Part shown: positions 22,089-34,220 of the stretch, one piece after another | Position numbering within the stretch: the stretch's first letter is position 1 | Layout: the number at the start of each line of letters is the position of its first letter | Assembly (NCBI GenBank): GCA_010093605.1 | Contig: MU004199.1 | Coordinates: 1,320,730-1,384,729 of the forward strand | Length of the DNA: 64,000 nt | Direction of reading: 5' to 3' | Origin: Lophium mytilinum | Taxonomy: Eukaryota; Ascomycota; Dothideomycetes; Mytilinidiales; Mytilinidiaceae | The notes under the pieces: generated by a model | Databases searched by the model: none | Told to the model about the DNA's origin: nothing | The model's input: the letters and a program-made list of their open reading frames with translations, nothing else | Translations under genes and position numbers: made by a program

Positions 22089-22743
22089 GGGGCATTTGCG
22101 ACTCGCTCGGGCTACAGCTTGTATAAGAGGTGACATGCTACCAGGCCTAGGTCTTTTCCTTTCTTCATCACACGCGTCATCTGCTACTTCCCTTAGGGGT
22201 ACGCGAATAGAAGTGCTTCCTTTCTCTCTCTCTTCATATCTTCCCCTGTCTCCTTTCTTATCTATGATGCTTCTTATGTCTCGTGTCCGGGCACTACGTC
22301 CACTGACGAACGAAATCGAAATTTGCTCATCGGCGCCGAATCGACCGCACTCCGTTCGAGAGCTAATGCGCAGAGAGAGGGACAAGAAACCTTAAATATG
22401 GGCTGCCTATGTGCGCTTTCTGGACTCTGTTTCTATCCGATGACCGGAAACATACGCTAATCCAACCACTGCCTCGTACTGCCACTTTACCAGGCCAATC
22501 TCCGCTTGTGTTATTCTATTCACGCTTAGTCACGGTAGGAGGTTTGGTCCAATATCAACTCTGCTACGTTTTAAAGCATGACGCATTCACATAGCAAGAA
22601 TTAGATGCCTGGTGCATAAGTCTGCGGCTTCTGTCCTATCACATTCAATGTCTGGATCACCGTCACCACCACCACCACCCCATTTACTCTAGCTCGACTC
22701 TCTAGTTCGTTCCAAACCTCCATCTATACTCGAAATCGCGATC
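22089..22743. other. Spacer
   Basis: Only short ORFs. The last 120 bases contain a CACCACCACCACC run and a C/T-rich leader before the next start codon. Confidence 0.4.
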
Positions 22744-23418
22744 ATGGTTTCGCGGGCGCAAGTAAAGGAAGACCAATGCGCAAAAAAGTTGGAAAACGCC
22801 CGAGACAGCGAAGACGAGAACGAAAGTCTTAGTGTCAAAATCGAATCTAGCAGGAGGGTTATTACTGAACGGGAATGCAAGAGAAAGGCTATCGAAGAAC
22901 CACACGAATCAGATGATGATACCGACGTTGCAACCGTTTACCTCAAGAAGGTCAAGCTTGCCGCAGATTTGGGGGTTGAGGATGAAGTAGCGCCCACGGA
23001 TCTAGCATTCGGCTACGGCCAAGACGGGCTGCAACACGAATCGGAATATTTCGCGGAACCTTCCATCACAGACTCCTTGTCGATCATGTCTGACTTCAGC
23101 AACTTTGATGATAGCGACTACCAAGCGCTTCATGACCTTCTCAGGATGCTCGACTCGGATGTCAATCTCCAAATTGACAAAGTGGCCCACCTTGAGCGTG
23201 GGGACATCAGAGTGACCCAGAAGGAGAAGGCGTTTGATTCGTTCTGCAAAGTCAGACGCCTACTGAAGGAGGTCGAAATGACCGGGCTTATGCACATGAG
23301 CGATGAGAAGGTAGAGACGCTACTGAACCGCGCTAGGAAGTTGTTCTACTCTACCGTTTCGGAGCGACTATCGAGTCTGCCACCGAATGAGGAGGTTATT
23401 CCCGGTTCGATGAGCTGA
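22744..23418 (+). CDS. Hypothetical small acidic protein A
   Basis: Intronless, 224 aa, start context gatcATGG. The N-terminal half is highly charged and carries a KRKAIEEP...KKVKLAADLG signature. The middle is acidic and Ser-rich (SLSIMSDFSNFDDSDYQ). The C-terminal ~90 residues look helical (HDLLRMLDSDVNLQIDKVAHL; KVRRLLKEVEMTGLMHM). The N-terminal signature recurs in the next gene, suggesting distant paralogy. No known domain was recognised. Confidence 0.55.
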   Translation: MVSRAQVKEDQCAKKLENARDSEDENESLSVKIESSRRVITERECKRKAIEEPHESDDDTDVATVYLKKVKLAADLGVEDEVAPTDLAFGYGQDGLQHESEYFAEPSITDSLSIMSDFSNFDDSDYQALHDLLRMLDSDVNLQIDKVAHLERGDIRVTQKEKAFDSFCKVRRLLKEVEMTGLMHMSDEKVETLLNRARKLFYSTVSERLSSLPPNEEVIPGSMS

Positions 23419-23846
23419 ATTTCTATGAGCATGATTTGCTTCTCCTGCAACCCCACGTTGATATTGGCATCTCAAATGGATGAACTCGAAGGGACGTCAA
23501 CAATGTGTCAAGTAGGAGCATATCACCGAGACGATCGTACACTGTGTAAGCTAGTATAGTTATGTGAAGGCATCATCCCATTGTTAAAGCACATGATTTA
23601 CTTCTGGACCGCATTCACGTCTGGACCACGTTCGCTTCTGGACGGTGTTCACTGCCCAGCACTGTCTTGTCATGAAACATGACACACTTTCACTTTACAA
23701 TTAGCAATTTCTCCAAGTATATAGTCCGCGCTAGTCCCAGCTCTCTTTCCCAGGTAGATTCCTTAACACTATTTCCACACTCTCCTACCTCACAACCAGT
23801 CCTAACTCTTCTTTTCAACCCCAAACCTTCAGCCCGTCCTGTCAAC
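23419..23846. other. Spacer with 17-bp triplicate
   Basis: Contains a 3 x 17-bp tandem repeat (23602-23652, unit like TTCTGGACCGCATTCAC). Downstream of it is a C/T-rich leader (23750-23845) for the next gene. Confidence 0.6.
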
Positions 23847-24299
23847 ATGAACCGGTACAACCTACGCAAGCGGAAGGCTACCGAGTCTCCATCTGCTTTA
23901 GTCAACGACCAAGCAAAGCATGCCATCCGCGCTGAAGCAAGCAAGAAATTGAAGGTTACGCATGAAGATCTGGGCATGGTGGATGCAAGCACCGAAGTGG
24001 TTGATACCGTCGAAGTAGGAGCAAAGGAGATCGCACCCATGGAGGAAGTTCCAGTGGGCGATCAGACCGCTGTGGCTACCAACTACGGCACCTCCACTGA
24101 GGTCCCAGTCCTATCGAAGGAGCTCGTGAACACCCTTGAGATGCTAGCTTCAGTGGCCAAGCAGCAGACCAACGACATTCCCATCCCGCAATTCTTTATT
24201 GACCACGAGGACCAGTTCCGCAAGCTGATGGAACAGATCAAGGAGGCAGGAGACGAAATGAGGGTTGAGATGATGAAGGTGTTCGTGGCAAACGTCTAA
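23847..24299 (+). CDS. Hypothetical small protein B
   Basis: 150 aa from the ATG at 23847 (context aacATGA). The open frame extends upstream, but the C/T-rich leader argues for this start. The N-terminus reads MNRYNLRKRKATESPSA then KKLKVTHEDLGM, a basic, nuclear-looking sequence similar in outline to the preceding gene. The C-terminal half is helical (FIDHEDQFRKLMEQIKEAGD). No family was recognised. Confidence 0.55.
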   Translation: MNRYNLRKRKATESPSALVNDQAKHAIRAEASKKLKVTHEDLGMVDASTEVVDTVEVGAKEIAPMEEVPVGDQTAVATNYGTSTEVPVLSKELVNTLEMLASVAKQQTNDIPIPQFFIDHEDQFRKLMEQIKEAGDEMRVEMMKVFVANV

Positions 24300-24952
24300 A
24301 GTCTCGTTGTCAACGAATCGGAGCGCGAGTAAGGTCAGCTACCTATCGAGATGGAGCTTTGTTTCACGAAGGTCGTATGGGGTCGGCCTGCGAGATACAT
24401 CCAGAACCCTGCTATGAGACCTGGCTAAGGTACTGGTCATAGCTGCGAAGACCCTATCTGGAGATTTCGAAGACGGCGATAAGACCGAGGGCTCAATACT
24501 GTTCTGATTATTTTCCCTCGATCTTTACGAAGTCTCGCGATGCACCGACTCTCAAGTGGTCGTCTTAGCACACGATTTCCGTGCACAGTCTCCAGAAGTT
24601 GGGCGATAGCTGGAGAAAATCTCCGCTATTCGCAGCAGTAGTTCTATTCTGAAGTTAAATTCAATTCTTTAAACACCAAGTATGTGCCAATAAAATCTAC
24701 CGTGTAATGAAACCCTAACACTGCGTGAAACTTAGTGCAATGAGTAATGTAGCTTGCTTCCCCAAAGGGGATGATAAGCGCTAGTTCGGATTAGTGCTGG
24801 CGTATTTTTGAATGTTTTACAAGTTGGTGTCCGTTTCAGCCTTCGGTGCCTTCTTCTATGCAAACGGGGTATTGATCCGTCAGATCACTGGACTAAGAAC
24901 GCACATATCATCGCAAAACTCTGGAGAAATTCAGAGAGCTACAAGTCGAAAA
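24300..24952. other. Spacer before kinase-ankyrin gene
   Basis: No supported ORF except a 47-codon in-frame upstream extension of the kinase-ankyrin frame (from 24812) that I treat as leader. No repeat was seen. Confidence 0.4.
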
Positions 24953-27900
24953 ATGGCAGTCAACGACGGTCGGGGATCTCTTACCGAGGACGAGTGGGGA
25001 TTTTCGACTCCCTCCAACGATGCGGCAGATCAGCCTCCGAAAACTTCTCAACATAGCCTCAATGAAGATGACTGGGGCTTCCCAACTAACAACACTGGCG
25101 ATACATCACCAAAGCCTGACACTCATTCTGCAGAAGAAGACGAATGGGGGTTTCCTATTGACAACAAGGGCGAGGCTACATCAAAGCCAGGCGAGCCATC
25201 CGTAGACGAAGACGAATGGGGATTTGCAATTGATCAAGCAAACGCAGCCACCGTGAACGACGCATCTGATCTCCTGAAAAAATGGGGTCTCGACTCTGAG
25301 CCTACTTCTCCCACCGGCGCCCCCAACGTCAGCGACGACCTTGCCGGAGCCGCTGAATCCCTTTTCGAAGGTTGGAAAACCGCGACTAGAACTGGAAATA
25401 TCGGCACCTCACTATCGACCTTCATTACGATCCTGTCAAGCCTCGATATTTCTGGCCCAGAACACCTTCTCATCCGCAGTCTAAAGCAAAGGGCCGTCAA
25501 AATAGGCCAAGGCTCCCAATTCAGCGTCTTCTTTGACAATTCTCCCATCGGCGAAGATGACGGCAAGGGAAATATCACCCAAAGGAAAGGCAGAGTGGTC
25601 AAGCGCGTCCGAATTTCAAAAATGGCGCTGAGTAGTGAAGAGGAGTTGGGGTTCAATGAGCAGTATTTACAGACACTTCGGCATTTAGAACTTGAGGTCC
25701 TCAGTCTGGGGTTGTTGCGACATCGGAACATTGTACGGTTACTGAGCTGGGGATACGATTACCAGGATCGGTATACGCCTATCCCGGTTTTATTCATGGA
25801 AGCTGCGCTTGCACCCCTGGATGAGTTTCTGTCATTGGAGAAGAAGAGCGAGGGCCTACTGGTGGCGTTGGGTGTTAAGAGGTGGGATGTCAAGTACCAC
25901 TTTGCGCTTGATGTCGCGGCGGGGCTCGAGGCGATACACAGTTTGAACATTGTGCATGGAGATGTTAAGCCTGAGAACGTCTTAGTGTTTCGGAACGATG
26001 ATCCAAAGGTTCCTTACGTGGCGAAGCTCAGCGACTTTGGAGTATGTGTGGATATGAGAATCGATGGGCAGAAAGTCACGCCGGAATCCTACCTTGGGAC
26101 TAGCTCGTGGACTGGCAGCGAGGTTGGGATCGGACAATGGAACGATGAGACGCATGGAATCTTTACGCAGGAGCTGTTGAAAAAGTTCGATTCGTACAGC
26201 TTTGGGTTGACGTTGCTTTCGATAATGGGGGCTTATGGCGGGTTGCCTCCGATTACAAAAGAGCCGGGGCTGGGGAGAGGATTCGGACTATTAAAGGAGA
26301 TCGAAAATTCACTGAAAGAGGCCAAGGGATGCCCCGAAGGCATCTTAACTCAAGTCAAGGCAGCATCAAAAAAGCTTCTGGCCATCAAGCCGTGCGAACG
26401 TCCACTCCCGTCTCCGATTCTACTGCGAACCGATCTTCCGGCCTACGTAGATTGGCTTCAAGTAAGTACGTCGGTGCAGCAAACACAGCAAAGGAAGCGC
26501 AACGGCCATGCGTATTGGTTTTCTCTCGATATACATGTTCTCAGATCTCTAGACCAGCAGTATACACAGCAAGAGAAACGGGGAAAGTCTAGTGGGTTTA
26601 GTGGCGAATCTCTTTTCGGAATGGCGGAAGCTTGCTCGCAGCAACCAACTGACGGATCCGCCGACAAGATACTGAACTTTCTCCTTGCATCAGCGGAGAA
26701 AGGTTACACTCCTGCAAGAGCGATTTGTGCAAAGGTGTATGAGGCATTTGATCGTCAATTAGACGTTGATGAAAAGACGTTGACGCACTGGGAAAGCGAG
26801 GCTGTGGCAGATGGCTTCATGTTTTATCGCCATCCATTTCTAGAAGAAGAGAGGCATGAAGGACAGCGACAACTTTTTAGGAGAAACGGTGGCTACTGCG
26901 ACGACCCTTTTCTGAGCATGGCCCCAATCCTCGCAACAGCACGAGACCTGAATAGGCTCACAATCTGGCTTTCCAAATTCAGCATCGATTCTGCTGTGGA
27001 TTCCATCGGAAATACCATTATGCATGTCTGTGCTGCTCTCGGGGAGGTTGACTCCGTCAGGCTTTTATTAGACAGATCAAAAGCGGACCTTTTCAACGAG
27101 AACGAGGAGACGCCGCTCTACAAAGCCTGCCAGGCCGGCCACACGGCTGTCGTCCAGCTGCTTCTTCGTAACGGTCATCGAGCAACCCCTACCAAGGATA
27201 TGAATGTTTCCCCATTGCACTGGCTTTTCAACTTTCCCGAATCAGATATTCAGCAAATTGCGGAAGCTATGGTCAAGAGCGGAGGAGCTGATGTCAGCCA
27301 TATGATCAAGCCGCCAAGATATTACGAGAACGCGTCAAAGTATCTCATGAAGCATTTTCCCTTCGAATTTCCACTTGGTACCCCTTTCCACTGGGCGGCA
27401 TTTGCGAGAAACAGAACCGCACTAGACGTTCTTCTAAGCCTCGGAGCTAAGATTGACGCTACCTATGATAACGGGAATCATGGAACAACACCTCTTGCTC
27501 AAGCCGTGTGTACCGAAGATGCGCCTTTAGTTGCCTACCTCCTCGAAAGAGGTACCGACACTTCCGTCAACAACAAAGAAGGCCGAAATCCCCTCCATCT
27601 AATGAGCCTAGGCGCCGGGAATGAGAACCCACTATCTTCGACGAAATGGGATACTTGGGTTAGACACGGAAATTGGAGAAACAGCGTTCAATCTGCAAAA
27701 GACGTAGTGCAGCTTCTAGTCCATGCAGGTGTCGATATCGAGGCCCGAGCGACTGGATACGGGAAACGCACGCCCCTACTAATGGCTTCCGACCCGATCT
27801 ACATGAAGGAGCACGTCGTTCAAGCACTCTTAGAGGAAGGTGCGAATGCGGACGCGCAGATGGATAGGTCGGATTTCAATGTACTGCACCTCTGGTGCAC

Positions 27901-29131
27901 GGCTGACCCGAGTCTGCTACGGTATCCCCACGTCTTCAAGGACTTCTTTGCGTACATCATCGAAAAAGTCAATAACCTGGACTGTCAAGCAGGTGCAATG
28001 GAGGAAACCGTCCTTCACCAGATGGTTAAGACGCAAATGCCTGCAGAGAAACTGTTTGAGTACATTGAACTTCTCTTTGCAGATCCGAAGCACAGTCCAA
28101 ATATGAACGCGAGGAACCGGGACGGGAATACGCCGCTCATGGTAGCTTGTCTGGGGCTCCCAGAAGGCATAGTAGAGAGGATCGGATTCCTTCTCAAACG
28201 TGGAGCGCAGCCCAGTCTCATGAACAACTACCAAGAGAACTTCATCCTGCGTCTCGTGGAAAACTACACCCTCATGGATGCGGATACTCTCTCAGCTTTG
28301 CAACTCCTATTTTCCCACGAGTCTCTCACGCCAGAAGTTCTCCAAAAGTTCATCAAAGAAACAAGTTTGACGGCTTTGACAGAATGTGCTTCGCAAGGCC
28401 GCATGAAAACCCTGTCCTACCTTCTTCAACTCGGCATGCGCAACAGGGTCAACGAAACGGTTACGGTGCGACGGACAGTGAAAACCGTTTTGGATGAAGC
28501 ATTTTTCTCGGCAAACTCGGCACGGTTCATATACATCCGCAATGCAAGTGACCTCCTTACCAAGGAAGAAATCGAGGAAGCCGAGCAAAAGAACCACCTT
28601 TATACATCCGACTCGGGCGTTGTAAACCGCTATGGCGGAGCTTCCGCCGCAAGAGCAAAGGAATCTTACTGGGCCTATCCGGAGATTTTTGCGCTGCTTC
28701 AATCTCATGGTGCGGTGCGAATACAACAGGCCGAGCATAGAGGTCCGTCGTGGAGAGACGCGATTGATCTTCCGGTATTGGGGATGACGAAGAACACGCA
28801 ACCAAACCTCGATCACTGGAGGCCGCTGTACGACCTAGAGGAGCTGGAGGATGGATGGGAAGAAGCTGCGTACGAAGAGTTCATGGATAGCTATTCATAT
28901 CTTAGCGAGGAGGATCTTGCGACATTGGAAGTTCCTATTTTGGCCTTTGAGCGATGGCCAAAGCTCGTGGAAATGCTAAGTGCGAAGAATGGTTGGTACC
29001 GCGGGGTTCTTAGAGATGGGAGGAGTGTTGAGGTCAAGATGATGGCAAAGGGGCAGGGCGGGATAGAGCAGGTGAGAGACTTGAAAGGCAGGACGTTGAA
29101 TGTGAAGGAGATTCTTGAGCGAGGATACTAA
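24953..29131 (+). CDS. Protein kinase-ankyrin repeat protein with N-terminal EDxWGF repeats
   Basis: One long frame; 1392 aa from the Met at 24953. A 96-nt stop-free candidate intron at 26462-26557 (donor GTAAGT) would reduce it to 1360 aa. Residues 9-95 hold four 24-26-residue repeats, each with ED[ED]WGF. The kinase domain spans about 180-500 with all catalytic features: glycine loop GQGSQFSV, Lys in VVKRV, HGDVKPEN (about 334-341) and SDFGV. A linker with Sel1-like character follows, then about ten degenerate ankyrin repeats from about residue 655 to 1150 (GNTIMHVCAALGEVDSVRLL; ETPLYKACQAGHTAVVQLLL). An acidic C-terminal region (YEEFMDSYSYLSEEDL) ends the protein. Kinase-ankyrin order recalls animal RIPK4/ANKK. 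The stop lies 27 bp from the convergent HeLo-pseudokinase gene. Substrate unknown. Confidence 0.85.
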   Translation: MAVNDGRGSLTEDEWGFSTPSNDAADQPPKTSQHSLNEDDWGFPTNNTGDTSPKPDTHSAEEDEWGFPIDNKGEATSKPGEPSVDEDEWGFAIDQANAATVNDASDLLKKWGLDSEPTSPTGAPNVSDDLAGAAESLFEGWKTATRTGNIGTSLSTFITILSSLDISGPEHLLIRSLKQRAVKIGQGSQFSVFFDNSPIGEDDGKGNITQRKGRVVKRVRISKMALSSEEELGFNEQYLQTLRHLELEVLSLGLLRHRNIVRLLSWGYDYQDRYTPIPVLFMEAALAPLDEFLSLEKKSEGLLVALGVKRWDVKYHFALDVAAGLEAIHSLNIVHGDVKPENVLVFRNDDPKVPYVAKLSDFGVCVDMRIDGQKVTPESYLGTSSWTGSEVGIGQWNDETHGIFTQELLKKFDSYSFGLTLLSIMGAYGGLPPITKEPGLGRGFGLLKEIENSLKEAKGCPEGILTQVKAASKKLLAIKPCERPLPSPILLRTDLPAYVDWLQVSTSVQQTQQRKRNGHAYWFSLDIHVLRSLDQQYTQQEKRGKSSGFSGESLFGMAEACSQQPTDGSADKILNFLLASAEKGYTPARAICAKVYEAFDRQLDVDEKTLTHWESEAVADGFMFYRHPFLEEERHEGQRQLFRRNGGYCDDPFLSMAPILATARDLNRLTIWLSKFSIDSAVDSIGNTIMHVCAALGEVDSVRLLLDRSKADLFNENEETPLYKACQAGHTAVVQLLLRNGHRATPTKDMNVSPLHWLFNFPESDIQQIAEAMVKSGGADVSHMIKPPRYYENASKYLMKHFPFEFPLGTPFHWAAFARNRTALDVLLSLGAKIDATYDNGNHGTTPLAQAVCTEDAPLVAYLLERGTDTSVNNKEGRNPLHLMSLGAGNENPLSSTKWDTWVRHGNWRNSVQSAKDVVQLLVHAGVDIEARATGYGKRTPLLMASDPIYMKEHVVQALLEEGANADAQMDRSDFNVLHLWCTADPSLLRYPHVFKDFFAYIIEKVNNLDCQAGAMEETVLHQMVKTQMPAEKLFEYIELLFADPKHSPNMNARNRDGNTPLMVACLGLPEGIVERIGFLLKRGAQPSLMNNYQENFILRLVENYTLMDADTLSALQLLFSHESLTPEVLQKFIKETSLTALTECASQGRMKTLSYLLQLGMRNRVNETVTVRRTVKTVLDEAFFSANSARFIYIRNASDLLTKEEIEEAEQKNHLYTSDSGVVNRYGGASAARAKESYWAYPEIFALLQSHGAVRIQQAEHRGPSWRDAIDLPVLGMTKNTQPNLDHWRPLYDLEELEDGWEEAAYEEFMDSYSYLSEEDLATLEVPILAFERWPKLVEMLSAKNGWYRGVLRDGRSVEVKMMAKGQGGIEQVRDLKGRTLNVKEILERGY

Positions 29132-29158
29132 GGTAGATTTATCTTCGCATACAGTCCT

Positions 29159-30799
29159 CTATAGTTTGCTCCCCTTTGACAACGCATCTACCACTTGCTT
29201 ACGAAAATCAATCGAGAGCTCCACTGCATCTTCTTGGCTCTCATTCGGTCTCCAAGATAGGCATTTCTGAACAACACCAGCGTAGCCCTCTCCCATTTCT
29301 TGTTTCAACTCCGAGCCGGCCGCCAATTGTCCGATCATTCCACTCACGCGCTGGAAAAGAGTATGTTGCTGCGTCGAGTCAATCCGCGGGTTCTTCTCCA
29401 GCGGTCTCGCAAACACAGTAGACATAGTCTTCCATAAGCCGATTTCAAGCAGCAAAACTCCCAGAGAGTAGATGTCATGCTCATTCGAGAATTTGTGCGT
29501 TGGTTTCCCGAAGCGTTGCTGGTGATGGTACAGATTTGGCTCCAGGTCGAAAAGCTCGTGAAGAGAAGTTGAGGCTTCGAGCGGCCGAGCGACGTCCCAG
29601 CCGACAAGGTAAGGGAGCTTTTCTAGATCATTGGATGAACCGGGAAGCATCAAAACGCTCCGGGAGCAAATGTTTTTGTGAACCCAGCCGGAAGTATGGA
29701 TAGTCAGGAGCGTGGCGGCTAAGGCGCGCGCCGTGCGAAATCGGCCTCCTAGGGTCAGCTTTGGCCTTCCCACAATCAGAGCGTGGAGGGTTGGTGTTTC
29801 CTCAGTGCCCAAAAGAACCTGAGGTGAACGGTAGAGAAGAAGGCTTCGATTCTTGCTAGGCTCGTCTAGAAAACCTAGGCAGCTGAGAGTGTGCATACGA
29901 TATCCCTCTTCAGCGTCCTGCTTTGACAGATCCGAGTCGACCGGGCCCTGAAGTAGCCATGTGAGCCTTCTGAGGGGTTCTTTGAGTGCTTTGGCCCCAT
30001 CGTAGTCGCGCTCGCTCGTAGCAAGCGCTATTGCGTCGTCGTACTGCCGGATTTCGACAATGACATCCATAGAATCGAAGCCCGACTTATCTTCGTAGAC
30101 ACCACGTAGGAGCTCTTGTTTAGGTTTCAAGATAACGGGATCTTTCATGTCTCCATCTAGCGCATCGTAGTTCTCGGGTGGCTGAGAATGCACTCTGATC
30201 TGCCTCTCCGACACCTCCTTGACACCGAGGTCTACGGCCTGCGAGCTGGCAGCGAAACCTGGGGTCGAATTTCCAACCAGCAGCAAGATAATTGAGAGCG
30301 TCTGCCGCAGTCGATCCGTCCACTCGGTGTAGTGCAGGAGGAGCGCTTCCATCGCTTCTTTCCCGAATAGCGCCCATTCCAAGGGGGAGGCTTTCTTTCT
30401 CCAGGTCTGGCACCGTGTCCTCATACCGTTGCCAAATTTCCACTTTTTCTTGGCTCCCGCGTCCATATCCTTTGCATCTCCCGCTATCTCCGGTACGACG
30501 CCTGCAAACTTCGATGCCTCAACTCGATACGCGCCTAACGCTTGGCTTAGCGCATCAAGGCAATGCTGAACATCTCTTTTCACACTATCCCGGACTCTGG
30601 AATCACGTAGAAGACCGCGCTCCTCACCAAAACAGACGTCGGTGAAGGTTTCGACGAAGACAAGTTCGTGCTCTAGCCGCTCGGAGATGTCGCGTTTGGC
30701 GGAGCCATACTCCTTGATCTCGGCTGTAACTTCGCGAATAAAGACTGTAGTTTCGTAGATTAGAGAAATAATCTCTAGAGAGGTGCTGAAAAGATCCAT
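29159..30799 (-). CDS. HeLo-like domain plus pseudokinase protein (MLKL-like architecture)
   Basis: Intronless, 546 aa from the Met at 30799. The frame is open 34 codons further upstream, but MDLFSTSLEIISLIYETTVF is the usual form of a HeLo-type N-terminus. Residues 1-210 are predicted helical and resemble the prion-inhibition-and-propagation HeLo/HeLo-like family. Residues about 290-540 are kinase-like but dead: the HRD-x-K-x-x-N loop reads WVHKNICSRSVLML and the DFG site reads VGWDVARP. The late-lobe motif HDIYSLGVLLLEIGLW is kept. HeLo-type domains are membrane-attacking helical bundles in fungal incompatibility and are related to the four-helix bundle of MLKL. Proteins of this architecture are expanded in Pezizomycotina and mostly uncharacterised. 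A cell-death role here is inferred. Confidence 0.82.
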   Translation of the reverse strand: MDLFSTSLEIISLIYETTVFIREVTAEIKEYGSAKRDISERLEHELVFVETFTDVCFGEERGLLRDSRVRDSVKRDVQHCLDALSQALGAYRVEASKFAGVVPEIAGDAKDMDAGAKKKWKFGNGMRTRCQTWRKKASPLEWALFGKEAMEALLLHYTEWTDRLRQTLSIILLLVGNSTPGFAASSQAVDLGVKEVSERQIRVHSQPPENYDALDGDMKDPVILKPKQELLRGVYEDKSGFDSMDVIVEIRQYDDAIALATSERDYDGAKALKEPLRRLTWLLQGPVDSDLSKQDAEEGYRMHTLSCLGFLDEPSKNRSLLLYRSPQVLLGTEETPTLHALIVGRPKLTLGGRFRTARALAATLLTIHTSGWVHKNICSRSVLMLPGSSNDLEKLPYLVGWDVARPLEASTSLHELFDLEPNLYHHQQRFGKPTHKFSNEHDIYSLGVLLLEIGLWKTMSTVFARPLEKNPRIDSTQQHTLFQRVSGMIGQLAAGSELKQEMGEGYAGVVQKCLSWRPNESQEDAVELSIDFRKQVVDALSKGSKL

Positions 30800-31960
30800 G
30801 CTTGGAGAAATTGTGTGGCGGAATGCTGATGACTGGATATGTGCGGCTGAAGTAGCGGAAAAGTTATACTTACACCTTTTGGCCCCCACTCTACCCCGCA
30901 CCAGCTGGGCCTTTCAATCAGTTACTTCGGACAAGGAAGAAGCAAGAAGAGTAGCTGGCTTGAGTGAAACTGCAAGGATTGGTACCCAACACGCCCACGT
31001 AAACCTATCTTCAGGATCCACAACAGGCAACCACTCTGAAAACTACTTTTTGTCAAGCGTCAATGCACGCCCCTATCGTCTGTCGAACTGAAACTGGGCA
31101 AAAGAGATAACTCTCTGGTCAATTTGATTCCTCTCACATCTCGAGCCTAAACCTTAATAATATGGGTAAGGTCACGCAGATATCAGCACGGAACATAACT
31201 ACAGCCGTGTATCTAGGAGCCAAGCCAAAAGCCATAAACGTTGTATTGAGAGCCGCAACGAATGGACATGTCGAGTTATCGAATATGTCAACAATTCAAG
31301 ACTCTTGTTTTCAGACACGCGAGATCAAGAATGGACGATTTGGAAAGTATAGGTGAATCGGGTAAGTATTCCGTCACGTGACGGAATCCTGCCTTGACCT
31401 CTCCAGCCTCTCGGCCAACGCGACGCAGACAACGCCCCCGGCAAAAATAATTTGCAGGCTCGTGTTCTTGGTATCGAAAGACGCTGGATGTGGATGCATC
31501 TCGCTACACAAGGTGATGGAGCCCTTTGAAAATCGACAATTGGCCTTGGCGTGTACCCAGGATACACGTGCGCGCCCGAAAGCGGCTATGGCGTTCAGGG
31601 GAGCCTCCGAGCTCGCTTCCTCATGCCAGCCTTGCACGCCTCAAGTCTCGCCCGAAGCCATGCTGATTTCCACTAGGATAGGCCAAGAATTCCGGCCATC
31701 TAGATGCCATCCACATGCTCATTATTCGATGGGTAGATTGCGGATGTATGAGAATGGACTGTTATCGGCGCCATTACTTTCAGTGGCGTGCGTAGGGGAG
31801 CAGAAGCGCAGAAAACAAATTCACAGTACGGAGCAGTCGCTGTCTAGTCTCAAACACTCGAACATCTTCTCTAACTTTTGTTTACTTCCAGTTGCTCACT
31901 CGCTTCGTCGATTCGTCATTCTTTTGGCTTCTTTTTTGTTTTGTCTCTCGTTAAAGCAAC
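30800..31960. promoter_or_regulatory. Divergent intergenic region with perfect CACGTG palindrome
   Basis: About 1.16 kb between two divergent genes. A perfect 20-bp palindrome ATTCCGTCACGTGACGGAAT lies at 31368-31387, centred on an E-box. Just upstream of the HeLo gene the minus strand has GTAAGTATAAC...ATATCCAG, a possible 5' UTR intron. ORFs here (up to 215 codons) have no family-like content and overlap the secreted protein's leader. No RNA gene was seen. Confidence 0.55.
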
Positions 31961-34220
31961 ATGAAACTCACTATCTGGACGTCATTCCTTACAGTCGCCC
32001 TTGTCGCGGCATCCCCTCTTTATGATCTCGAAGAGCGTGACCAGGAACATCCCGAATGCCACCCCTCTTCATGCTGTGTTCGTGGATGGGAGACCCAGTA
32101 TGGAGGTGCTACTTACTGGAGCAGTCAGGACAAGAAGTACCGCACTAAAGAAGCATGTGGGCGCCACTGTGCTGCGGATGGACGGTGCCAAACGTATTCC
32201 ATTGAGAAGAACAGCTGCCGCCATTACAAATCTTCGCTGTAAGAGGACTGTATCTCGTGTTATTGAGCTGGGTCTAATGTTACCTAGTGATAGAGTTATG
32301 CACCGCTCAAAGGGTGGTCATCGAGACTTCTACGACAGATGCTGCGCTGGAACAGAGCATCATCCCAAGCCGACGCCGAAGCCGTATTCTCGCCCTGTAA
32401 CGGCGTCGACACCCAAGCCCAGTGACTCCACGAGGAAAACTTCCGCCCACTCAACCCTGAAGTCTTCCAGCGCCTTGACGAAGAAGCCTTGCAGCAGCTC
32501 CACCCTAAAGACATCCAGCATCTCAACGAAGAAGCCCTGCAGCAGCTCCATCTTGACGAGTTTCAGCGCGTCTAAGAGGCCTTCCGGCAGTTCTTCAAAG
32601 CCTTGCTCCACCGAGTCCCCACCTGCTAGCAGATATTCCAGCTCTGCTAGGCCCAGCTCAACACTACCTGCTTACCAAACATCTTCTTCGCTCGTTACAT
32701 CGACCAGATACGCACCAAGCAGTCACAGTTCTAACACGCCGTCTTTTACGCCTTTTTCATTGTCTCCAACATCTTCAGAGGCGCCTTATTCGACACCTGA
32801 GCCATCTTCCTCGATAACTTCAGACATTGTCTCTTCCGTCTTTTCAGCGGCTCCTTCCTCGACCTCAGATGCTATTTCATCAACGTCATCTCAGATAATT
32901 TCTTCGACGCCCGAGGTTCAGTCTCCAACGACTCTGGAGACATCCTCATCAACGCTGTCAGAGAATGCCTTCTCTACCTCAGTGGCTGCTTCTCTGTCTT
33001 CCACGTCCGACGCGTTCTCATCTACTTCTTCAGAAACTGTCTCTTTAATATATGAGACCTCCTCTTCGATACCCGAGAAACCGTCTTCAACATCTTCATA
33101 CACTGCTTCGTCAACATCGGATGCTGCTTACTCTACTTCTTCAGAGACCCCTTCTTCTACAACATCTGAGATTCTCTCATCAACATCTACTGATACTCCT
33201 TCCTCAACCTTAGAATTGATTTCGTCGACATCTTCCGAAGCTATATCCTCAACCTCCGATGCATTCTCTTCAACCTCCTCAGAGGCACCATCCCCAACGT
33301 CGGTCGACTGTCTCTCAACAACAACAACTTCAGATGCTAGTTCTCCAACTTCTACGGAAGATTTTTCCCCAACCTCGGAGATTGCTTCCCCAACTTCAGA
33401 GATTTCTTCCACGTCCTCCGAGGTTTCGTCTTCAACATCTTCAGATGCGGTTTCCTCGACCTCAGTTGAAGGTCCTTCCTCCACCTCGGACTGCTCAACG
33501 TCTTCCAAGGTTCCGTCTTCAACCTCCGAGATTGTTTTCCCAATTTCAGAGACTTTTTCCACGTCCTTCGATGTTCCATCTGCAACATCTTCAGACGCTG
33601 TTTCGTCGACCTCGGCTGAAGCTCCCTCTTCAACTTCAGATTGCTCAACGCCTTCAGAAGTACCGTCCTCAACCTCAGAGATTGTATCCCAGACCTCATC
33701 GGAGACGTCAAGTCCATCTTCCACGATCGAGTCATCCACCACGCTCGAGCTATCAACCACAACCACGCCCTGTTCGAGCGAAACACCAGCATTCACTCTA
33801 TCGTCCACGGACAATCCTGAATCTACACTCCCAAGCAGCACTACGGAGACCGCATCATCCACAAGCGACTCATCCAGTACTCCCTTCTTTACACCCACAC
33901 CAACACCAACACCCAGTCCAACTCCAACGCCAACTCCGAGCAGCTCGGCCCCCGCAGCGCCTGCACCAACCTGTGCAGTTCAAGGCAGCCTCAGATCTGG
34001 AATCACCTACACGAACATTGCGGGCCAGAGCTTTGCTGGTTGCAAAACCCGGTGTCAGACCTACACCCTCGCTGGTCGTTCCTGCCGCGTATACGGTTTC
34101 AATTCCTCGACTCTTGTCTGCACGTTGTCGCTAGGATTCGGGGCCCCAACGTTTGACATTGCGTTTACACCGAACACTTCTGGGGTGCTGACCTGGTATG
34201 ATGCTACCTGCGCATTGTAG
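31961..34220 (+). CDS. Secreted mucin-like protein with two PAN/apple-like ends
   Basis: Exon 1 is 31961-32238 and exon 2 is 32288-34220, with a GT-AG intron at 32239-32287 splitting a Leu codon. The product is 736 aa. A signal peptide (MKLTIWTSFLTVALVAASP) is followed by a small Cys-rich module (ACGRHCAADGRCQTYS...NSCRHY...YDRCC) resembling fungal PAN/apple-like domains. Then come ~560 residues of Ser/Thr/Pro repeats likely to be heavily O-glycosylated, a PTPTPTP linker, and a C-terminal PAN-like module (AGCKTRCQTYTLAGRSCRVYG...CTLSLGFG). No GPI signal is visible at the C-terminus. A 50-residue tandem duplication lies at 33421-33720. The protein is presumably an extracellular or cell-wall surface protein; ligand unknown. 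Confidence 0.82.
33421..33720 (+). repeat. 150-bp tandem duplication in the Ser/Thr region
   Basis: Two consecutive 150-bp units encode 50-residue blocks of the form SDAVSSTS[VA]E...STSDCSTxS...PSSTSEIV. They differ at scattered sites but keep frame and length. Each has one Cys, the only Cys residues within the mucin-like core around this position. Confidence 0.8.

Follow-up and report, generated by a model that had tools for sequence, protein, structure and literature searches.

A convergent kinase-ankyrin and pseudokinase gene pair suggests a kinase-triggered cell-death switch in a fungus

We identified a pair of convergent fungal genes, P0001 and P0002, that encode a kinase with ankyrin repeats and a pseudokinase with a probably helical N-terminal region, respectively. 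The recurrence of such kinase-pseudokinase pairing in the same genome suggests a kinase-triggered cell-death switch that resembles animal necroptosis. We interpret P0001 and P0002 as a two-gene signaling cassette in which the kinase triggers a pseudokinase executioner, a reading to which we assign a probability of roughly 0.45. This model builds on the observed structure of the genes, their sequence motifs, the families to which they belong, and the recurrence of their linkage.

All coordinates are positions within the window, the 64,000-nt stretch of DNA that was analyzed. P0001 spans 24953..29131 on the plus strand (1392 amino acids) and P0002 spans 29159..30799 on the minus strand (546 amino acids), each comprising a single open frame. 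Both frames are uninterrupted and the positions of their stop codons (29129-29131 and 29159-29161, respectively) were verified, confirming the convergent arrangement with stops 27 bp apart that had been described in an earlier, sequence-only reading of this DNA. No direct or inverted repeats of at least 25 nt were detected within 22500-33500 except for those at 32742-33445, which lie outside of the gene pair. Two short tandem rows with a low score were observed at 28331-28357. A scan for bacterial-type promoters and terminators was given no weight, since the host is a fungus.

P0001 begins with four repeats that feature an acidic W-G-F core (from residues 12, 38, 61, and 85; 24977..25225, plus strand), as identified by sequence inspection. 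A kinase domain follows at about residues 178-510 (25484..26482, plus strand), where a Pfam match to residues 243-425 was extended by alignment, and an ankyrin-repeat region covers about residues 676-1110 (26978..28282, plus strand) based on matches to Ank_2, Ank, and Ank_4; the extent of both domains is approximate. The Pkinase (59.9 bits versus a cut-off of 31.7) and Ank_2 (110.2 bits versus a cut-off of 27.3) matches exceed their Pfam cut-offs, and the catalytic loop of the kinase reads H-G-D337, with D361-F-G as the next motif. With its catalytic motifs kept, the kinase looks active, and the inferred order of an intact kinase followed by ankyrin repeats was upheld.

The sequence-only reading had also likened P0001 to animal RIPK4/ANKK. 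The likeness holds for domain order, but a specific relationship is not supported, since Roco4 (7.6e-9) and LRRK2 (5.4e-7) lead the matches of the kinase to solved structures. Among the best 60 of 231 such matches, no animal RIPK was present and the plant ScRIPK accounted for one match. The top solved-structure matches of a related kinase at C13 were MRCK beta and LRRK2. RIPK ancestry of the P0001 kinase, as judged from these comparisons, is not supported. A scan for amyloid motifs, limited to the RHIM-core pattern, recovered one weak candidate (LQLG at residue 1158 of P0001) and none in P0002, and no NACHT or NB-ARC domain was detected in either protein (Pfam, E up to 1). The linker of P0001 bears a weak likeness to that of a second relative at C9 (14 of 500 shuffles were as good) and no likeness to that of C13 (498 of 500), while 3 of 500 shuffles were as good as the comparison between the C13 and C9 linkers. 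A Sel1 domain is not claimed for the P0001 linker; the Sel1 match was at C9 only and scored 22.6 bits versus a cut-off of 30.7.

Structure and profile comparisons place a TKL-like pseudokinase domain at about residues 300-546 of P0002 (29162..29902, minus strand). Motif reading revealed a degenerate catalytic loop (29648..29686, minus strand), in which H-K-N376 replaces H-R-D, and a degenerate DFG position (G-W-D, residues 400-402) with a pseudo-activation loop (29564..29611, minus strand). These replacements bear out the earlier claim of a catalytically dead kinase domain. A serine/threonine cluster at residues 409-412 of the pseudo-activation loop is a candidate phosphorylation site. The best of five solved-structure matches of P0002 (E up to 1) was the MLKL pseudokinase 6vbz (E = 0.0054, residues 334-457). 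A profile of nine members of the pseudokinase family described below ranked TKL kinases first, and because B-RAF (1.7e-11) and IRAK4 (1.6e-9) outrank MLKL (2.3e-9) for this profile, P0002 was not classified as MLKL. A partial match of P0002 to the antiphage kinase MAD6 (NCBIfam; 33.7 bits versus a cut-off of 460) was read as general kinase similarity.

The N-terminal region of P0002 (residues 1-215; 30155..30799, minus strand) is a candidate HeLo-like module based on a sub-cut-off HeLo match (Pfam stretch at residues 56-168, 30296-30634), helices in a low-confidence model, and a match to the HeLo region of a paralogue at C3. HeLo (PF14479) scored 12.3 bits against the whole protein and 14.9 bits (E = 0.023) against residues 1-215, both of which fall below the curated cut-off of 23.2 and thus short of family membership. 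Single-sequence AlphaFold2 yielded a pLDDT of 36.6 for P0002 and 43.4 for residues 1-215, where helices were seen, and neither model was usable. No solved structure matched residues 1-215 at E up to 1. A profile of six HeLo regions from the same genome gave an hhalign probability of 3.0% (E = 0.015) against this region and no match by hmmsearch. When the six regions were compared individually, 0 of 200 shuffles were as good as the comparison with C3 (one of the six) and 10 to 134 of 200 were as good as the remaining five; z values of 2-3 in such shuffling carry no meaning, because control stretches of P0001 reach a z of 2.7. The HeLo label initially proposed for P0002 is therefore weaker than claimed in the protein itself, but HeLo exceeds the Pfam cut-off at 4 of 11 pseudokinase loci.

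These 11 loci comprise the P0002-type pseudokinase family in the same genome, the one genome to which all family counts refer. Two members, at C9 and C13, carry a caspase-like front end, and at both loci a DUF6594 gene sits between the kinase-ankyrin and pseudokinase genes; a literature search for DUF6594 in fungi returned no match. The C9 island also holds a patatin-like gene. Pfam scanning of selected frames detected no gasdermin.

The adjacency pointed out in the sequence-only reading is repeated elsewhere in this genome, with a kinase identified within 2.7 kb of 6 of the 11 family genes. The reciprocal best kinase relative of P0001 is C13 and the next is C9, both of which are kinase-ankyrin genes beside family pseudokinase genes, and three further family genes are arranged head-to-head with a second type of kinase. 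All six partner kinases, including P0001, keep the kinase motifs (HGD or HRD, plus DFG). The three head-to-head pairs are paralogues; apart from the pair genes, the stretches that were read contain no frame common to them. Five of the family genes lack a kinase neighbor, and four of the seven best second-type kinases lack a family partner. Furthermore, a check of 17 ankyrin loci (L015-L031) recovered a fourth kinase-ankyrin candidate (C3:1815-1817 kb), where a kinase frame precedes the ankyrin match by ~1 kb and no family gene is nearby, which rules out that every kinase-ankyrin gene is paired.

Linkage was evaluated at the level of lineages because duplicated pairs are not independent, yielding P = 0.027 if 282 kinases are counted and 0.051 if 400 are counted, under the assumption of uniform placement. 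HET genes (150 of 152 matches) were used for comparison. With an extended kinase list, a kinase lies within 6 kb (start-to-start) of 5 of 11 family genes versus 6 of 150 HET genes, and within 8 kb of 6 of 11 versus 8 of 150; the C9:1340 pair falls beyond 6 kb and inside 8 kb by this measure. The P value of 2e-4 for the extended list is biased, because some of the seven kinases that it adds to an independent list had come to light via the tested loci themselves. The unbiased figure is that from the list independent of the tested loci (2 of 11 family versus 6 of 150 HET genes, P = 0.095). The independent list comprises 119 positions from 137 matches. The other 18 matches were left out because each was taken for the second piece of a gene, which in one case (C4:1,093 kb) removed both pieces in error; no HET or family position used lies within 8 kb of that gene.

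These values are compatible with a linkage that is historical only, as are the paralogy of the three head-to-head pairs and the unpaired C3 candidate. Specifically, one or two ancestral neighborhoods may have been duplicated, or accessory genes may have pooled in fast-changing regions, with P0001 and P0002 acting independently. We consider this rather unlikely, since the pairs persist at protein identities of about 27-35% among kinase-ankyrin genes and 31-56% among head-to-head pseudokinases with no other flanking frame in common, two distinct kinase types are tied to one pseudokinase family, and HET genes, which are likewise accessory, are near kinases in just 6 of 150 cases.

Pseudokinases often serve as allosteric partners, and P0002 might accordingly be a scaffold, decoy, or inhibitor of the neighboring kinase, with death, if any, proceeding via other proteins. 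Such a role would be consistent with the 5 of 11 family members that have no adjoining kinase, which indicate that the family has uses outside of this pairing. Front ends of the HeLo type (4 of 11) and of the caspase-like type (2 of 11), which portions of a 2025 review connect with fungal or animal cell death (PMC12881547), nevertheless render a functional pair that is not of the executioner type improbable. Ordinary signaling, in which the pseudokinase would be an adaptor that serves development or the response to stress and has no part in cell death, is very unlikely given the same front ends and the patatin-like gene in the C9 island, despite a weak match of P0002 to DUF7580 (19.1 bits versus a cut-off of 27), which has no stated function.

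In the two-gene cassette that we favor, the ankyrin repeats of P0001 would detect a ligand or partner and thereby activate the kinase, which would in turn phosphorylate P0002 in its dead kinase domain or otherwise engage that domain, perhaps via the pseudo-activation loop. The helical N-terminal module would thereby be released to damage the cell's own membrane, and we infer a role in self-inflicted death, be it in defense or allorecognition. Other cassettes of the same genome may operate on this principle with different kinases, one of which has WD40 repeats, and with the caspase-like front end. It is possible, if doubtful, that these cassettes represent a modular, gene-clustered death system, where a kinase with sensor repeats acts as the switch for a linked TKL-like pseudokinase with an exchangeable HeLo-like or caspase-like front end, where some cassettes include a DUF6594 membrane protein, and where the logic of necroptosis operates without an NLR or amyloid.

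Fungal HeLo executioners are known chiefly via NLR and amyloid triggers. A linked active kinase is a concrete candidate trigger for a HeLo-type executioner, and if P0001 acts on the pseudokinase, the animal kinase-to-pseudokinase death switch would have a fungal counterpart, whether by descent or convergence. The pairing also provides a search rule for other fungal genomes, namely an active kinase beside a family pseudokinase. Broader exploration of fungal HeLo/4HB proteins is called for in the portions of the 2025 review considered here (PMC12881547).

According to the same portions, fungal HELL domains occur in kinase and pseudokinase proteins, and the architecture of such HELL/HeLo proteins is similar to that of P0002 and, more clearly, its C3 paralogue (PMC12881547). 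P0002 differs in its sub-cut-off HeLo match and in its linked active kinase, which is absent from the account in those portions. HET-S/NWD2 and HELLP/PNT1 are likewise two-gene clusters of a sensor and a HeLo-type executioner (PMC12881547, in part), whereas the P0001/P0002 pair lacks NACHT and NB-ARC domains (Pfam) and has a kinase as its proposed sensor. Fungal protease-gasdermin clusters, as outlined in part of that review, also combine a sensor (with WD40, ANK, or TPR repeats) with an executioner, and their protease domains can be fused to kinase-like domains (PMC12881547); in contrast, the caspase-like domain here is on the pseudokinase protein, and the selected frames that were scanned contained no gasdermin. 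RIPK4/ANKK share the order of kinase and ankyrin repeats with P0001, but P0001 has a long linker and W-G-F repeats, and its best 60 of 231 structure matches include no animal RIPK. RIPK3-MLKL differs in that the fungal kinase and putative executioner genes adjoin, P0001 has ankyrin repeats but lacks a clear RHIM, the nearest solved kinases of P0001 are Roco4 and LRRK2, and the pseudokinase profile matches B-RAF better than MLKL. The fungal pair nonetheless resembles this system in combining an active-looking kinase with a putative executioner, in which a probably helical N-terminal region is joined to a dead kinase domain within the TKL range. While descent from RIPK is not supported, we propose that the cassette may work like RIPK3/MLKL.

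The 43.18-Mb genome (24 contigs) includes two uninterrupted open frames that converge within the window (C19, positions 1320730-1384729): the kinase-ankyrin gene P0001 on the plus strand at 24953-29131, and its neighbor P0002 on the minus strand at 30799-29159. The sequence-only reading had described a tail-to-tail pair with stops 27 bp apart and, on the plus strand, a kinase followed by ankyrin repeats; both the spacing and the domain order were recovered. Specifically, P0001 comprises, from its N-terminal side, four repeats built on an acidic W-G-F core (24977-25225, as read from the sequence), a kinase domain that retains HGD and DFG motifs, a linker, and ankyrin repeats. P0002 comprises an N-terminal region, helical in predicted models of low confidence, and a C-terminal kinase-like domain, where HKN and GWD replace the canonical motifs, consistent with the earlier proposal that this domain is catalytically dead. 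The NCBIfam model for the antiphage kinase MAD6 weakly matched P0002 residues 337-492 (29432-29902; E 1.5e-8, 33.7 bits, cut-off 460). Beyond the 5' end of P0002, a 41-nt repeat occurs nine times in a long Ser/Thr-rich frame (31965-34217), whose product looks surface-exposed or secreted.

Pseudokinase domains like that of P0002 were identified at 11 loci (contig:kb), with the identical set returned by two separate queries of the genome: the focal C19 locus, C9:1319, C9:1340, C5:446, C5:2408, C10:1094, C3:1994, C13:1028, C13:1459, C1:771, and C15:797. A third query recovered 9 of the 11, with C1 and C15 absent. Among the best 60 of 444 PDB sequences, a profile of nine members ranked TKL kinases on top (B-RAF, 1.7e-11; IRAK4, 1.6e-9; MLKL, 2.3e-9). 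DFG was detected in none of the 10 members with a readable loop (all but C15), and the HRD aspartate was lost in nine of these, C13:1028 being the one that retains it.

Pfam HeLo scored over its cut-off (23.2 bits) at four family loci (C3, 137.8; C1, 48.1; C13:1028, 40.7; C15, 25.6 bits). The HeLo match and the pseudokinase match at C1 and C15 fall in different frames of the same strand; that the two belong to one gene at each locus is inferred. The N-terminal region of P0002 is a candidate for the HeLo-like bundle that had been proposed: none of 200 shuffles aligned with the C3 HeLo as well as residues 128-169, and the low-confidence models are helical, but residues 1-215 scored 14.9 bits, the remaining five HeLo comparisons were not significant by shuffling, and P0002 was missed by a profile built on six HeLo regions.

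The closest relative of the P0001 kinase by sequence alone was at C13:1466 (51.6 bits; next kinase 27.4), and the reverse query returned P0001 as best (55.1 bits), followed by C9:1334 (31.5 bits, barely over the next at 28.6). Both relatives share the kinase and ankyrin architecture and retain HGD and DFG, with no W-G-F repeats seen in either by eye. Each adjoins a family pseudokinase gene, in tandem at C13 (frame edges ~2.6 kb apart, closer if a caspase-like first exon is included) and convergently at C9 (2.58 kb). A second kinase, C13:1456, with motifs HQD and DFS, lies on the opposite flank of the C13 pseudokinase. No family gene was found near a fourth kinase-ankyrin candidate (C3:1815-1817).

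Kinases of a second type, all retaining HRD and DFG, lie head-to-head with the C9:1319, C5:446, and C5:2408 family genes at 0.4-0.7 kb, that at C9:1319 also carrying WD40. In the flanks examined, these three loci share no frame beyond the pair genes at E 1e-4. Among the seven best of 33 matches to this kinase type, three are paired with a family gene and four are unpaired. Together with the two kinase-ankyrin neighbors and the focal pair, six of the 11 family genes therefore have a kinase within 2.7 kb. A profile of five kinases detected none within the 8-10 kb examined around C10, C3, C1, C13:1028, and C15.

Under random placement of 282 kinases (the first-look candidate count), a kinase within 3 kb of five of the 10 non-focal family genes has P 1.8e-5; with duplicated types collapsed to lineages, the result is 2/7 (P 0.027). 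HET-domain genes form a large family in this genome (at least 152 matches, 274 first-look candidates). A kinase within 6 kb was more frequent in the pseudokinase family (5/11) than among HET genes (6/150; P 2e-4, or 1.4e-3 minus the focal locus), with both values reflecting a kinase list built partly from the tested loci; the initial genome-wide list alone, which misses P0001, yields 2/11 versus 6/150 (P 0.095). Deep support in the pseudokinase and kinase trees was weak, and the trees do not show how many origins there were.

A DUF6594 gene (28 matches genome-wide, grouped here into 17 loci) sits between the kinase and pseudokinase at both C9 and C13. The N-terminus of the C9:1340 protein is caspase-like (Peptidase_C14, 23.7 bits; cut-off 21.4) and is matched by two upstream exons of the C13:1459 gene (46% over 56 residues; z 7.5, 0/500 shuffles as good) that Pfam alone does not name. 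The two proteins also share a linker (z 11.6, 0/100 shuffles), which in C13 partly resembles the C15 HeLo region (z 6.4, 0/200 shuffles). The C9:1317-1343 kb interval holds a kinase-WD40 gene with a HeLo-like pseudokinase, a kinase-ankyrin gene, DUF6594, a caspase-like pseudokinase, and a patatin-like phospholipase frame (81.3 bits), and by its predicted domains is an island of putative death-type genes. A direct repeat (~205 bp, 84% identity) lies beyond both ends of the C9 kinase-pseudokinase cassette (C9:1332501-1332693 and C9:1342512-1342716), with these two copies the only ones returned by a genome-wide search; it could be a common upstream element or a duplication scar.

HELL domains on proteins with kinase or pseudokinase domains, and kinase-like domains fused to proteases, already appear in sections of PMC12881547. 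Sections of PMC2838846 describe TKL kinases as isolated in several fungi, with large numbers in Laccaria bicolor only. No description of an active kinase linked to a HeLo-pseudokinase appeared in the sections covered of PMC12881547, PMC10197012, PMC2838846, and PMC9815663, or in a wider, partial literature search. The PDB ranking of the P0001 kinase, headed by Roco4 and LRRK2, does not support descent from RIPK4-type kinases. The linkage, architecture, and catalytic states observed at these loci are best read as a sensor kinase that acts on an executioner gated by its pseudokinase. In the mechanism suggested by MLKL and HET-S, as treated in sections of PMC12881547, a P0001-type kinase would phosphorylate its pseudokinase partner, the helical bundle would be released, and the freed bundle would kill at the membrane.
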